Of a stretch of DNA of 64,000 bases, positions 22,349-29,661 are shown piece by piece. The first letter of the stretch is position 1, and the number at the start of each line of letters is the position of its first letter. A model generated the notes under the pieces. The model saw only the letters and a program-made list of their open reading frames with translations, searched no databases and was not told the DNA's origin. The stretch is taken from the NCBI GenBank assembly GCA_022841915.1, contig JALHQN010000006.1, forward strand, positions 248,001 through 312,000. Reading direction: 5' to 3'. The DNA comes from Burkholderiales bacterium. Its GTDB lineage: Bacteria > Pseudomonadota > Gammaproteobacteria > Burkholderiales > WYBJ01. The translations under genes were made by a program, and so were the position numbers.

Positions 22349-23131
22349 GTGGATTACGCAGACATTCGATTGGAGAAGAAGGACGGTGTAGCGCGCATCA
22401 CGATTGACCGGCCGAAGGTCATGAACGCTTTTCGGGGTCAGACTGTCGAGGAACTGATCCACGCAGTCTCGGACGCGGGATGGGACCGCGATATCGGCGT
22501 GATCGTTTTGACTGGTGCGGGCGACCGCGCATTCTGCACCGGGGGCGATCAGTCAGCCCACGACGGACAGTACGATGGACGCGGGACGATCGGCATGCCG
22601 ATCGAGCAACTGCACAGCGTCTTGCGAGAAGTGCCCCTCCCGGTGATCGCTCGCGTCCAAGGGTACGCGATCGGAGGCGGCAATGTCCTTGCCACCTTGT
22701 GCGATCTCACGATCGCCTCGGAGAAGGCCATCTTCGGACAAGTGGGACCGAAGGTCGGCTCGGTCGATCCCGGTTGGGGCACTGCCTATCTTGCGTCCGT
22801 GGTCGGCGAAAAGCGCGCCAGAGAAATCTGGTACCTGTGCCGGCGCTACAGCGCCCAGCAGGCGTTGCAGATGGGCCTTTGCAACGCGGTGGTCCCACAC
22901 GACCAGCTCGACCAGGAGGTCGACAAGTGGTGCGCCGAGATTCTCGAAAAGAGTCCCACGGCGATCGCCATTGCGAAGAGTTCATTCAATGCAGCGACGG
23001 ATTCCATACGTGGCATTGGTAGCCTCGGCTTCCAGGCGCTCAGCCTGTATTACCAGACGGACGAGTCCAAGGAAGGCGTCAAAGCCTTCATGGAGAAGCG
23101 TCGGCCCGAATTTCGCAAACGGCCGAAGTAG
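22349..23131 (+). CDS. badI: 2-ketocyclohexanecarboxyl-CoA hydrolase, BadI type
   Basis: A 260-residue crotonase of the BadI/MenB subgroup. BadI opens the ring of 2-ketocyclohexanecarboxyl-CoA to pimelyl-CoA by retro-Dieckmann hydrolysis. Sequence blocks match BadI from Rhodopseudomonas as I remember it: PKVMNAFRGQTVEELI, GAGDRAFCTGGDQSAHDG, RVQGYAIGGGNVLATLCDLTI, FGQVGPKVGSVDPGWGTAYLA and the C-terminal TDESKEGVKAFMEKRRPEF. It starts at GTG with GGGAG upstream. There are no other menaquinone genes nearby and a BadH-like SDR lies in the same window, which favours BadI over MenB (naphthoate synthase). The true ring may differ from cyclohexane. Confidence 0.85.
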   Translation: MDYADIRLEKKDGVARITIDRPKVMNAFRGQTVEELIHAVSDAGWDRDIGVIVLTGAGDRAFCTGGDQSAHDGQYDGRGTIGMPIEQLHSVLREVPLPVIARVQGYAIGGGNVLATLCDLTIASEKAIFGQVGPKVGSVDPGWGTAYLASVVGEKRAREIWYLCRRYSAQQALQMGLCNAVVPHDQLDQEVDKWCAEILEKSPTAIAIAKSSFNAATDSIRGIGSLGFQALSLYYQTDESKEGVKAFMEKRRPEFRKRPK

Positions 23132-24130: not shown

Positions 24131-24491
24131 GTCCCCCAAGACAATCGGTGCTGTCGAAGTAGATTCCACCATCAACATGCCGTCCTCATGGGCCGCCATG
24201 AATGCAAGTAGCTCGCAGGGAGGACGCAGTCCCACTTCCGAGCCATCGGATGAGTAAGGCCCCCGAACGAAGAACCATTTCATGAGACGACGAGTAGAAG
24301 ACGTACGAGCAGATCTCTTGGCCTCTAGCATGCAAAGCGCCCACAGCGAGCGCGATGCGATTGACTAGTGACAGGGGTAGGAATACCGTGGTGTAAGCGC
24401 AAAAGGGCGAAGTCAAAGCACTGCCGCTATCGTGTTACCAGTTCGGCACACAGTCGAACTCACTGGCGTAGGTCAACAGAAGGAGGAGTTC
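24131..24491. other. Intergenic between the MDR gene and a Bug gene
   Basis: About 360 bp with no gene. Near its end (24440-24460) is an inverted repeat AGTTCG-N9-CGAACT, 31 bp before the Bug start, a possible operator. It does not match either of the two operator families described here. Confidence 0.5.
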
Positions 24492-25484
24492 ATGAGACAT
24501 GACTACAAGATTCGCTTGGGGGTCACGTTAGGCGTGGCGTGGGGTTGCATTGCAGTCGTACCCTCACCAGCCTTTGCGCAAGAGTTCCCTGAACGACCCG
24601 TCCGCTTGGTAATCCCATTCGCGCCTGGCGGCAATACCGACATTGTGGGTCGACGCCTAGGCGCACGCATAGCGGGCGCACTCGGCCAGCAAATGATCGT
24701 CGACAACCGCTCCGGGGCTGGGGGCACGATCGGCGGCGCTGAGGTAGCGCGTGCAAAGCCCGATGGATACACGCTTCTCCTCGCCACATCGTCTTCCCAC
24801 GCGATCAACCCCACGGCGATGCCGAAGATTCCCTATGACGCGGTAAAGGACTTCACCGGCGTCTCGGCAATCGGCACGGTATCCCAGTCCTTAGTCATTC
24901 ACCCAAGCATCCCAGCCAAGAGCGTCCGCGAGTTCGTTGCTCTCGTCAAAGCACGACCAGGGGAATTCGCCTATGGCTCGACGGGCGTGGGAGGCATCAA
25001 CCACCTTGGCGGAGAGTTGTTCAAGCAAAAGGCGGGCGGGCTGAACATCGTCCATGTGCCCTACAAGAGTTCAGGGCTCAGTTTGCAGGATGTCCTCGGC
25101 GGGCACCTACCCGTGGTCATTTCGACGGTCAGCGCAGCGCTGCCGCATCATCGAAACAACCGCGTGCGCATCCTCGCAGTGTTCAACGATGAGCGGACAC
25201 CCGCCGCCCCGGACATTCCGACCTCTGCCGAGGCGGGCGTTCCTGGCGTCACGGTCTATACATTCAATATCGTGCTTGCGCCCGCTGGCACGCCTGCGCC
25301 CATCATTGACCGATTGCACAAGGCTTTTGCCGCCGTGATGGCGGACGATAGCTTTGCCAAGGAACTTGTGGATCTTGGCGTCGAACCGATTCGACGCTCA
25401 AGTCCCAAGCACGCGTCCGACTTCGTACGTGTAGAAATCGCCCGCTGGGCCCCGCTTGTAAGAGCCGCCTTGCAAGAAAAGTAG
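24492..25484 (+). CDS. Bug/TctC-family periplasmic solute-binding protein
   Basis: A 330-residue Bug protein. The ATG at 24492 has AAGGAGGAG upstream and opens a strong signal peptide ending SPAFAQ; an earlier in-frame start adds 20 residues that break the signal. Mature-protein blocks are FPERPVRLVIPFAPGGNTDIVGR, MIVDNRSGAGGTIGG and AKPDGYTLLL. It follows the badI/MDR unit after a 360-bp gap with its own possible operator, and a strong hairpin (25493-25524) closes the transcript. It probably captures a carboxylate for the neighbouring catabolic genes. Confidence 0.95.
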   Translation: MRHDYKIRLGVTLGVAWGCIAVVPSPAFAQEFPERPVRLVIPFAPGGNTDIVGRRLGARIAGALGQQMIVDNRSGAGGTIGGAEVARAKPDGYTLLLATSSSHAINPTAMPKIPYDAVKDFTGVSAIGTVSQSLVIHPSIPAKSVREFVALVKARPGEFAYGSTGVGGINHLGGELFKQKAGGLNIVHVPYKSSGLSLQDVLGGHLPVVISTVSAALPHHRNNRVRILAVFNDERTPAAPDIPTSAEAGVPGVTVYTFNIVLAPAGTPAPIIDRLHKAFAAVMADDSFAKELVDLGVEPIRRSSPKHASDFVRVEIARWAPLVRAALQEK

Positions 25485-25619: not shown

Positions 25620-26174
25620 CTACCCCACGCCGGTCAGTATGCGTCTGACCTGCGTCACGACCGATTCCGCGCGTAGCTTGAGTTCCTCCTCGGATGCCGC
25701 TGAACCCCACTCCGCCGCCGAGTACGGAAACACTGCGAATTCGAGCGAAGGAAAGCCCTGCACACGCGCCATGGCCTTTCCGGTGGTGTTCACCAGCTTG
25801 TCGAGCGCAATGACAGCAGCTGGCTTACCCTTGCGCTCCAGGTTGATCGTGTCGAGCACACTGCCCGACGTGCACGACCCTCAATCACCCACACCGACAA
25901 CGACGGCATCGACCCTCGTCACAAGATCGTTGAGAATCTCTTCGGGTGCTGCATTGCCGACAAACATCTTTTTCGTGAAGTAGACATCAGCGACACCGTA
26001 CTTCTCCGTGAGCGCATCGCCCACATGACGGAGTAGACGATCGCCACCGAGTCGGTTGTTCCACAAAATACCAAGCCGCTTTCCTGTGAGTGATTCCAGC
26101 CGAGGCGCTGGGACGACCTTGCGCGAGCCGACTAGGATTCTTGGATCAAGGACTATCATCGTAGTTTGCTCCAT
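25620..26174 (-). CDS. UGSC-family selenoprotein (in-frame UGA decoded as selenocysteine)
   Basis: Two frames that look like separate small genes are one 184-residue protein if the UGA at 25881-25883 encodes selenocysteine (residue 98). The codons after it read Gly-Ser-Cys, giving the U-G-S-C motif that names the UGSC family of selenoproteins. The reading frame is exactly continuous on both sides, and the two halves flow into each other (VVVGVGD-U-GSCTSGSVLDTINLE). A bacterial SECIS-like hairpin follows the UGA (25847-25877). The U-G-S-C motif may be redox active, but the reaction is unknown. The ATG is preferred over a TTG one codon upstream. The gene is 36 bp after an unrecognised partner. 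Confidence 0.85.
25847..25877 (-). promoter_or_regulatory. bSECIS-like hairpin for selenocysteine insertion
   Basis: On the minus strand, 18 nt after the UGA, an apical loop AGTGT (25858-25862) closes a 6-bp stem (TCGGGC with one wobble pair opposite GCTCGA, 25852-25868). A 4-nt bulge separates it from a second 5-bp stem (TCGTG with CACGA). Bacterial SECIS elements lie immediately 3' of the UGA, with the loop about 16-37 nt away and a GU in the loop. This hairpin meets those criteria. Confidence 0.7.
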
Positions 26175-26210
26175 CAATGGCGCCCCACCGTGCCGAGAAC
26201 GAGGGCATTC

Positions 26211-27320
26211 TCAGGTTCTCGCCGCCAAACGGATCGGCTTGGTTACGGGCGTGGTAGATTGGCTGTAGGGTTGATAGAAGCCCATCGTGTTGCCGGCATC
26301 GGCCCCCGCGGCGACGATGAGAATATCCGCGCGCCGCGTCATTCCCCCTTCGTGAAAGACGTAGGGGTCGAGTTCCGGATTACGCTTGAACAGATACACC
26401 CAGCGCTCGTCGTCTCCCTCCTCGAGCGGCACGATATCCTTCAACCCGCGAACATGAATGGATGCGTGCCGCCCCCAGCGTCCAGTCTCCTTCAAATGTT
26501 TCACTGAGCGCCGACAGTTCTCGAAAATGTAGTCTCGGATTCTCCGCTTGGTCCAGCCCTCGTTCACGAGGAGTTGCTCTATCGTCGGCGGAATCGTGAC
26601 CACGAAGACACCCGGCGAGAATTCGTGCTGACTGAGTGCGTTCACGAGTGGCGCAAGCAATGCGCGGGGCGTACTGCCAATGATGCGCGCGTTGCATAGA
26701 TTGTAGCCGGACGACACCGTAACGGTGCTCATCGAGCGCTCGAAGCCCTCCCACTCATTCACGCCCTCCCAACCAGTATCCGGGTTCTCCGCAATGCACA
26801 TGGAGTAGCGATGCGCGTTACCGAGATCGCCGCGCTGAATCGCGTCAGGGCGCAGTTCGCAGCAGTTCCACAACAGCAGGCTGATCGCGCGCCCCAGGGT
26901 GGCGTTCGCGCGATTCCCGGATCCAAACAGATAGCGGCCATGGTGCATGCCGATATCACGCACGATCGGACCAGACACGACGAGCAACGGCCAGGGCGAA
27001 CCCAGGCTTGCGAGATGATTGAATTTGAATAGCGGATCGGCTAAGGCTTCGACCGCGGCCACGAGCACCGGCATGTACTGCGGCAGGCAACCCGCCATGA
27101 CCGCATTGATCGCAAGCTTCTCAGCCGTAATCAGACTGGCTCGTTCCGAGATATCGGCGATGGGCGCATCGGGCGCCAGGCCGACAGCGTCGAGGAACTG
27201 CTGCACTCGCGCCTCGGTCGGCGGAATGATCGGCAGACCATCGGTCATGCTTTCCCGATAGAAATGCTCATTGCACTCCACCGCATCGAGCACCTCGATG
27301 CGATTCGACATGAATGCCAT
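26211..27320 (-). CDS. Unrecognised protein paired with the UGSC selenoprotein
   Basis: A 369-residue protein I do not recognise. It has no signal peptide or obvious transmembrane segment. Its cysteines occur in MAGCLPQYMP (about residue 77), NCCELRPD (about residue 154) and NLCNARIIGS (about residue 210). It also has ERSMSTVTVSSGYN and a C-terminal ADILIVAAGADAGNTMGFYQPYSQ. It lies 36 bp upstream of the selenoprotein gene on the same strand, so they are most likely co-expressed and may act together, one perhaps providing the substrate-binding part of a redox enzyme. ATG at 27320 is supported only by position; MSNRIEV three codons in is an alternative. Confidence 0.75.
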   Translation of the reverse strand: MAFMSNRIEVLDAVECNEHFYRESMTDGLPIIPPTEARVQQFLDAVGLAPDAPIADISERASLITAEKLAINAVMAGCLPQYMPVLVAAVEALADPLFKFNHLASLGSPWPLLVVSGPIVRDIGMHHGRYLFGSGNRANATLGRAISLLLWNCCELRPDAIQRGDLGNAHRYSMCIAENPDTGWEGVNEWEGFERSMSTVTVSSGYNLCNARIIGSTPRALLAPLVNALSQHEFSPGVFVVTIPPTIEQLLVNEGWTKRRIRDYIFENCRRSVKHLKETGRWGRHASIHVRGLKDIVPLEEGDDERWVYLFKRNPELDPYVFHEGGMTRRADILIVAAGADAGNTMGFYQPYSQSTTPVTKPIRLAART

Positions 27321-27503: not shown

Positions 27504-28670
27504 TCAATCCGTGTCTAGAATCTGTCCCGCGATGACCAGTTTCTGAATCTCGCTAGTGCCTTCGTAAATCCTGAGGGGGCGGATTTCGCGATACAACCGC
27601 TCAACGATGTTTCCAGCCAACAGCCCCGCCCCGCCGAGCAGCTGCACGGCAGAGTCGATCACACGCTGTGCAGCCTCGGTGGCGTAGAGCTTTGCCATGG
27701 CTGCCTCGCGCGTGATGCGCTCTGCGCCCTTGTCTTTGGCCCATGCTGCGCGATAAACCAATAGCGCAGCTGCATCGATCTCTGTCGCCATGTCGCTCAC
27801 CCGCATTCGGGTGGCCTGTAGATCGGCGAGCCGGGCCCCGAAAAGCATTCGATTGCGGACGTGCTCTACTGCCTCATCGAGCGCTCGCCGTGCAAACCCG
27901 AGGGCTGCAGCACCCACGGTCGAACGAAAGACATCCAGTGTGGCCATCGCGATGCGGAAGCCCTGACCTGGGCTTCCGAGCATGGCGGTGGCCGGAACCC
28001 TGCAATCTTCGAAACGCAGCAGACCCAGAGGATGCGGCGCAATGACGTCCAGTCTCTCGGCGACGAGGAGTCCCGGTGTGTCGGCATCAATCACAAACGC
28101 AGACAGCCCTCGGGCACCAGGCGCCTCGCCAGTTCGCGCAAAGACGACATACTGCGCGGCAATGCCAGCATTGGAGATCCACGTCTTACTGCCGTCAATG
28201 ACGTAACTGTCTCCTTCCCTTCTGGCAGTCGTCGCAGTCGCGGCAACATCCGAGCCCGATTGCGGTTCAGTCAAGGCAAAGGCGGCGATTCGTCGGCCTG
28301 CGGCGATCTCTGGCAGGTAGCGACGCTGCTGCTCCTGTGTGCCGAACAATGTGATGGGTCCGCTGCCCAATCCCTGCATGGCGAACGCGAAATCCGCCAG
28401 ACCGGCCCTTTGAGCCAACGCTTCTCGGATCAGGCACAAACTTCGCACATCCAATCGCTCCGTGATTCCGCCGAAGGCCTTTGGCAATACGTAGCGTAGC
28501 CACCCTGCATCCGCCAATGCACGGACAAGCGCACGCACGCTGTCGTCAACCTCTGCCGTCTCGGTAGCGACAGTTCCTAGGTTCGCGTTTCCCCATTCTT
28601 CGATGCCGCGCGCCAGACTTCTATGCTCGCTCTCGAAAAATGGCCACGAATGAAAACTTTTGTCGGACAC
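27504..28670 (-). CDS. Acyl-CoA dehydrogenase
   Basis: A 388-residue FAD acyl-CoA dehydrogenase with all usual parts: [63 protein letters not shown] and the catalytic Glu in [18 protein letters not shown]. The GTG at 28670 has GGAGGAG seven bases upstream and fixes the N-terminus ([16 protein letters not shown]). A longer in-frame ATG lies in the divergent promoter region and is rejected. It is transcribed away from the crotonase at 28903, with a 17-bp operator candidate between them (28727-28743). The typical reaction is 2,3-dehydrogenation of an acyl-CoA. Confidence 0.94.
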
Positions 28671-28726
28671 GAGAATACTCCTCCACGCCAGCCGGATCAC
28701 TGATTCTCCGGAGCACCGGCGGCGTG

Positions 28727-28743
28727 TTGAACAGCCTTTCAAT
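28727..28743. promoter_or_regulatory. 17-bp operator candidate (site E)
   Basis: TTGAACAGCCTTTCAAT lies between the divergent acyl-CoA dehydrogenase and crotonase genes, 57 bp from the dehydrogenase start. It contains TTGAA-N6-TTCAA. It matches WTKAACVRCCWTTCAAT, also found at 30709 and 38827. The TetR protein at 36707-37480 is the likely binder by position. Confidence 0.6.
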
Positions 28744-28848
28744 AAAACGCCCCCGATTCGTCCGTCGACGGCTCGCCACGTTGCGGTGGTATTGAAACGG
28801 TGTGCAACAGGCCTGTCAACACGACATATGGGCGCACGGATAATTGAC

Positions 28849-28867
28849 ACCCAACACTTCGTTGGGT
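28849..28867. promoter_or_regulatory. Perfect inverted repeat before the crotonase gene
   Basis: ACCCAAC-ACTTC-GTTGGGT has a 7-bp perfect stem around a 5-base centre, 35 bp upstream of the crotonase start. It could be an operator or a leader hairpin; nothing else in the window matches it. Confidence 0.45.
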
Positions 28868-28902
28868 ATTGATGCTCCAGGTATCCGACAGGACGATCGA
28901 AG

Positions 28903-29661
28903 ATGTTTTCTCTCACAGAGGGTTCCTTGGCTGGCGTCCATATCGTTCGATTGGAACGCCCTCCGGTGAACGCCATGCGGTCCGCTGACATTCAACAGCT
29001 CCGGGGCGTGCTAAGCGACGCAATCAATCGACAGCAATGCCGTGCACTGATCTTTGCGGCAAGCGGGCGATTCTTCAGTGCCGGCGCCGATATCAAAGCG
29101 ATGCGAGCCCCTTCGGGCGAACCAGCGCCGGTCTGCGAGCTGGTGGCTCTCGCGCGCGACATGCAGGATGCGTTTGCCGCGCTCGAACGCTTTCCCGCTC
29201 CGACGATCGCTGCGATCACGGGCATTGCAATGGGAGGCGGCCTTGAGCTTGCGCTCGCCTGTGATTTTCGCTTCGCATCCAAGGACGCTCGAATCGGCCT
29301 GACAGAAACGCGCATTGGGCTCATCCCGGGCGCTGGAGGCACGCAACGGCTGACCCGCATCGCGGGCAAATCGACGGCCATGCGCATGATCCTCGCTGCA
29401 GAGGTCATCGACGGCGAAGAGGCCGCAAGGAGAGGCATCGTGGACGAAGCATTCGACGCTCCAGAAGTCATGGATCGAGCAATGAGCTTCGCCAGTACTC
29501 TCGCAGGCATGCCAGCCGAGGCGCTGCGCGCCGCGAAGCGCTGCATCGCCCTCGCAGCCACTGATGAGGGCTATGCCGCGGAAATCGAGGAAACCAGACG
29601 GCTGCATCGGACCGAAGAAACTCAAGCCAAGATTGCCGCCTTTCTCAACCGCCCTCGCTGA
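28903..29661 (+). CDS. Enoyl-CoA hydratase/isomerase (crotonase) family protein
   Basis: A 252-residue crotonase. Oxyanion segments are [12 protein letters not shown] (57-67) and [17 protein letters not shown]. The general-base Glu144 position is kept as Glu135 in [18 protein letters not shown], but the Glu164 position holds Arg161 (STAMRMIL). Loss of one of the two acids is seen in crotonases that act as isomerases, so a delta3-delta2 isomerase is possible as well as a hydratase. It is divergent to an acyl-CoA dehydrogenase and shares an operator candidate with it. Its stop is 9 bp from the convergent Bug gene. Confidence 0.92.

Follow-up and report, generated by a model that had tools for sequence, protein, structure and literature searches.

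A predicted UGSC-family selenoprotein with a conserved partner protein, one of 19 paralogues in a Burkholderiales genome

Selenocysteine (Sec) is costly, most genomes that use it encode a handful of selenoproteins, and selenoprotein-rich genomes belong mostly to anaerobes. The UGSC selenoprotein family was described in a 2008 survey of ocean metagenomes, which suggested a thioredoxin-like fold for it and reported its fusion to an unnamed domain, Unknown_1 (PMC2398784). Across 5,200 bacterial genomes, another survey tallied 33 UGSC selenoproteins from 26 organisms (PMC5029168), and the largest known bacterial selenoproteomes hold 57 genes (Olavius Delta 1 symbiont) and 63 genes (a Methylomirabilota MAG) (PMC13188914).

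We analysed a 64,000-nucleotide stretch of DNA (the window) in which a UGSC gene is carried on the minus strand:

25620..26174, minus strand: predicted UGSC-family selenoprotein gene (frame, PF24696 match, homologue alignment, selection)
25881..25883, minus strand: in-frame UGA, predicted to be read as selenocysteine, in D-U-G-S-C (Sec/Cys column in 38 homologues)
26157..26159, minus strand: probable start codon, ATG ATA GTC CTT GAT (GGAG upstream, homologue starts)

The gene shares with the family described in 2008 (PMC2398784) the U-G-S-C motif, a putative UGA-encoded Sec and a full-length Pfam match, and differs from the UGSC family of earlier work in that it is one of 19 expanded copies, all of them of the Sec type, and has an obligate partner. 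One UGA, at 25883-25881, separates two minus-strand frames of the same phase, and the codons that follow, GGG TCG TGC, encode Gly-Ser-Cys, as the sequence-only reading had stated. Its expectation that standard gene calling would report two fragments also held, the ORF list giving 25881-26177 (98 aa) and 25620-25859 (79 aa). Read from the first ATG, at 26174, the protein has 184 aa with Sec as residue 98. The second ATG, at 26159 (179 aa), is the likely start, because GGAG precedes it at about 26169-26172 and homologues begin M(M)IVLDPR (MMIVLDPR in L079 and L080). The Pfam family UGSC (PF24696) covered residues 8-181 of 184 (2.6e-43; 148.6 bits, gathering score 25), with U/C-G-S-C at the family position. 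The score against the NCBIfam UGSC equivalog NF041046 was 96.6 bits, under the curated cut-off of 125, so the window protein lies outside the equivalog and counts as a diverged representative of the broader UGSC family. The Sec/Cys column, the next Gly and the Cys of UxxC were invariant in 38 aligned homologues. An Rfam scan around the gene gave no match at gathering thresholds.

Directly upstream lies a second gene, whose stop codon precedes the start of UGSC by some 36-51 nt:

26211..27320, minus strand: partner gene, 369 aa, homologous to the domain found at the C-terminus of fused UGSC proteins

A profile of the window partner found a homologue at 19/19 UGSC loci, fused C-terminally to UGSC in 8 and separately encoded nearby in the others (at a distance of 3.5 kb in one). 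Partner and UGSC counts per genome were 20/19, 26/24, 19/17, 28/26, 62/58, 23/18, 1/1 and 3/4, the two copy numbers correlated across genomes (r = 0.998), and the partner was absent (0) in eight control genomes. The one surplus copy in this genome (20 partners, 19 UGSC) is a partner gene without an adjacent UGSC gene (L186, G000:C13:101988-102998). The partner alignment contained 14 invariant columns, a Cys conserved at 95% (C78 of the window partner), and the motifs DGLP-xPPT, MAGCxP, NGP, GR and ENE together with Gly motifs; no Pfam or NCBIfam family matched. By description, the partner is probably the Unknown_1 domain (PMC2398784). Its structure model (pLDDT 85, pTM 0.89) returned no significant match in Foldseek, and a resemblance to cyanuric acid hydrolase/barbiturase (Toblerone fold; E 0.04-2, TM about 0.2) was set aside as a lead only. 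UGSC and its partner very probably constitute a selenoprotein-plus-partner module, and we infer a physical complex of the two.

Each of the 19 UGSC genes found in the genome is interrupted by one and only one in-frame stop, which is UGA in every case and falls at the same motif. Three other genomes of the genus carried 17, 24 and 26 (a genus range of 17-26 per genome), selected genomes elsewhere in the order carried 8-19, and one genome of the same order, G292, gave 58 UGSC matches. The G292 count was drawn from 54 regions, and since the frame of one (L147) was miscalled and two had no frame found, the total is given as about 50; these copies, among those listed, have UGA in UGxC and no further stop. 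They are distinct from one another, the identity to the nearest copy having a median of 63% and a maximum of 75%. Copies in other genomes nearly all retain the in-frame UGA, and replacement of Sec is rare among the paralogues. Two genes without UGA, both fused to the partner domain, were seen: L128 (G001:C44) has Cys in place of Sec (C-G-T-S), and in L129 (G292:C76) the active-site motif is gone. With about 50 copies, G292 is similar in size to the Olavius Delta 1 and Methylomirabilota selenoproteomes (PMC13188914), but the genes counted here are nearly all of one family and belong to Burkholderiales-type Pseudomonadota. We found no description of the expansion or of the obligate partner in the accessible literature, although an earlier one may exist. 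Such an expansion is easily missed because standard ORF calling splits UGSC genes in two. The upstream partner, the 18 paralogues and the relation to GrdB and PrdB set out below all go beyond the sequence-only reading.

The genes around the window pair include the following, the last two taken as genomic context only:

24432..25484, plus strand: TctC/Bug-type periplasmic receptor of a tripartite tricarboxylate transporter (PF03401, 1e-65)
27504..28991, minus strand: acyl-CoA dehydrogenase-like neighbour (translation read by eye)
22349..23131, plus strand: enoyl-CoA hydratase-like neighbour (translation read by eye)

Across the UGSC neighbourhoods many TctC receptors were present (near UGSC in 13/19), as were enoyl-CoA hydratases (ECH_1 in the tally), CoA-transferases and 2-hydroxyacid dehydrogenases, a content that suggests catabolism of small acids. 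The association of the TctC neighbour with the UGSC gene is no more than suggestive. A specific TctC-UGSC link was rejected, TctC being too frequent in the genome; the 64-kb window holds 13 TctC/Bug-type receptor genes, an unusually dense set.

UGSC was compared with the Sec-containing subunits of the Stickland reductases. The glycine reductase selenoprotein B model TIGR01917 matched 18/38 UGSC proteins (best 3e-6), and the D-proline reductase PrdB model TIGR04483 matched 11/38 (best 2e-7); the window protein scored 12.4 bits against TIGR04483, far under the family cut-off of 300. Because the PrdB/GrdB cut-offs were missed, UGSC is regarded as a homologue and not as a member. An hhalign comparison of UGSC with PrdB-like proteins, a set that includes a Sec-containing protein from this genome (L126), gave E = 2.6e-6 and a probability of 88.6%, with Sec on Sec and UxxC aligned. 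These profile comparisons indicate a remote but significant homology between UGSC and the subunits that carry Sec in glycine and D-proline reductase. Beyond this homology, UGSC has in common with PrdB and with GrdB/GrdF/GrdH a UxxC whose Sec aligns with theirs and the presence of a second protein. That second component is not recognisably the same: the pyruvoyl proprotein family PF09338 (PrdA/GrdE) had no match in ten partner proteins, and its weak matches (E 0.04-0.06) came from fused proteins and from UGSC-only proteins, none from a stand-alone partner. The Stickland analogy may therefore not extend to the partner, which matched neither PrdA/GrdE nor any other family. The settings differ as well, UGSC genes lying among CoA-ester catabolic genes whereas PrdB and GrdB occur in Stickland fermenters.

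We assign a probability of about 0.45 to the reading that UGSC and its partner form a two-component selenoenzyme superfamily, distant kin of the Stickland reductases, that radiated substrate by substrate in this Burkholderiales group. On that reading the paralogues of each genome, 17 to about 50 in number and nearly all with Sec, would each be specialised for a substrate of its own within catabolic clusters, and the diversification of substrates that this implies is tentative to the same degree. The UGA is almost certainly decoded as Sec by SelB, tRNA-Sec and the downstream hairpin, yielding a protein of 179-184 aa, probably cytosolic, with the active site U-G-S-C (UxxC). This protein very probably works with the product of the upstream gene at 26211-27320, the one fused to UGSC in paralogues. 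Selenium-dependent reductase chemistry shared by the two components in catabolic clusters, proposed from homology, is the reading that we favour, although at somewhat less than even odds. In this chemistry, the selenolate would attack a small substrate bound by the partner or at the partner interface, a chemistry that appears the most likely because of the homology to the D-proline and glycine reductase Sec subunits. The substrate would be reductively cleaved or reduced, the product would be released via a Se-S bridge to the UxxC cysteine, and cellular thiols would re-reduce the enzyme. The 19 modules would probably serve different substrates, and many of the modules are clustered with genes for carboxylate receptors and for the catabolism of CoA esters.

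The main alternative, which we consider unlikely, is an enzyme of general thiol redox chemistry or detoxification (resembling thioredoxins, peroxiredoxins or metal-handling proteins), equally a selenoprotein and not a substrate-specific reductase. UxxC is a generic redox motif, and the thioredoxin-like fold guessed in 2008 would suit such a role. The structure model of a fused paralogue (pLDDT 82, pTM 0.83), however, is flavodoxin-/Rossmann-like and not of thioredoxin fold: the modelled Sec opens a helix that follows a strand of the flavodoxin-like domain, and no thioredoxin fold appeared among its top 50 PDB matches, the scores of which were weak. A sequence search of solved structures with the UGSC and fusion profiles gave chance-level matches only. 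Moreover, the sequence homology is to GrdB/PrdB and not to thioredoxins, and a general redox enzyme would not be expected to exist as 19-50 divergent copies that have a partner apiece.

Whichever of these roles UGSC has, the window gene is almost certainly a selenoprotein gene and not a pseudogene, as the sequence-only reading had proposed; the Sec machinery, purifying selection across the UGA and hairpin covariation all argue for it. A search of the genome for the sel genes placed each above its cut-off: selA (571 bits, cut-off 267.9), selB (434 bits, cut-off 242), tRNA-Sec (75 bits, cut-off 47) and selD (424 bits, cut-off 125), with selA, selB and tRNA-Sec grouped at C1:633-638 kb. The selD gene (L131:584; G000:C28:17953-18882) itself has an in-frame UGA, in GGGUGCK, and selenophosphate synthetase is therefore also a predicted selenoprotein here. 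Compared with three named betaproteobacterial relatives (L079-L081, 64-76% identical), pN/pS was 0.23-0.34 on the 5' side of the UGA and 0.23-0.42 on the 3' side, so constraint on the 3' half resembles that on the 5' half and purifying selection on the frame continues past the UGA. Among 399 genomes of the order, SelA was present in 38/40 with UGSC and in 70/359 without it (Fisher 5e-22, kinship between genomes ignored), the two UGSC genomes without SelA being G103 and G143. These comparison genomes are mostly draft assemblies, and the titled relatives are MAGs. At six loci (G131:C47, G168:C16, G262:C110, G060:C81, G210:C88 and G239:C56) a UGSC gene lies within about 2 kb of selA, which suggests that the family is a main client of the Sec system in those genomes.

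The hairpin downstream of the UGA was assessed by folding and covariation:

25851..25869, minus strand: SECIS-type hairpin, 7-8 bp stem, triloop GUG (folding, covariation, codon shuffles)

The sequence-only reading had claimed a hairpin starting immediately after the UGA with a GU-containing loop 18 nt downstream. The hairpin and its GU loop are upheld, but the stem begins 11 nt after the UGA, and the conserved apical GU (25861-25860) lies 19 nt after it. In the E. coli fdhF SECIS element the hairpin is located about 11 nt after the UGA and carries GU in its apical loop; the distance from UGA to loop GU we take to be equal in the two. Differences from the fdhF type are a loop that is shorter by one nucleotide (AGUNU, with a stem of 7 bp) and, in the UGSC set as a whole, a second hairpin class with loop CGUGUU in fused paralogues, which covaries too; the fused paralogues L036 and L037 (UGxC-ATxCGR subfamily) have neither conserved geometry. 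Taken alone, the window hairpin gave z = -1.58 against dinucleotide shuffles (16/200 shuffles equally good) and P = 0.019 against synonymous-codon shuffles. Its own energy is thus only moderately unusual, and it is the comparative evidence that makes it convincing: 96.7% of pair cells were paired across 23 distinct sequences, the covariation score was 0.295 versus 0.106 in shuffled alignments (0/500), and no slid version of the hairpin exceeded 45% paired. The Val codon opposite a variable stem base was GTC in 21/21 genes with Trp (TGG) and GTG in 22/22 genes with Cys or Gly (Fisher 1e-12, kinship ignored). Such compensatory changes at synonymous sites are the clearest sign in support of the hairpin. 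In the genes of the first class, the residues after UGSC (W/C/G, V/L/I/M and H/L/R) covary as a result of base pairing between their codons in the stem, and the RNA thus appears to constrain the protein sequence at this point.

A true stop, leaving a pseudogene or two separately translated halves, would account for the two fragments in the standard ORF list and for the modest energy of the window hairpin, but it is highly improbable given purifying selection past the UGA, a single UGA at the same motif in 19/19 paralogues and in nearly all copies elsewhere, Sec machinery that is present and co-occurs with UGSC, and synonymous sites that covary with the stem. Reading of the UGA as another amino acid without selenium (Trp, or misincorporated Cys) would also keep both halves under selection, but is just as improbable against a complete selABCD set, a covarying SECIS-type hairpin in the UGA context, the classic Sec/Cys exchange in L128, and other in-frame UGA genes of known selenoprotein families (selD, PrdB-like). 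The PrdB-like gene (L126:1399-2622; G000:C3:349680), with an in-frame UGA in S-P-V-U-P-N-C followed by a GU-loop hairpin, is by its sequence a selenoprotein gene of another kind in this genome.

By identity the window gene belongs unremarkably to a known selenoprotein family, but its setting is extraordinary, and selenium use by this bacterium appears unusually extensive. That 19 to about 50 divergent copies persist and hardly ever revert to Cys points to a chemistry that requires selenium and to many substrates. With the partner, the homology to GrdB/PrdB and the genomes at hand, what UGSC does can be tested directly.
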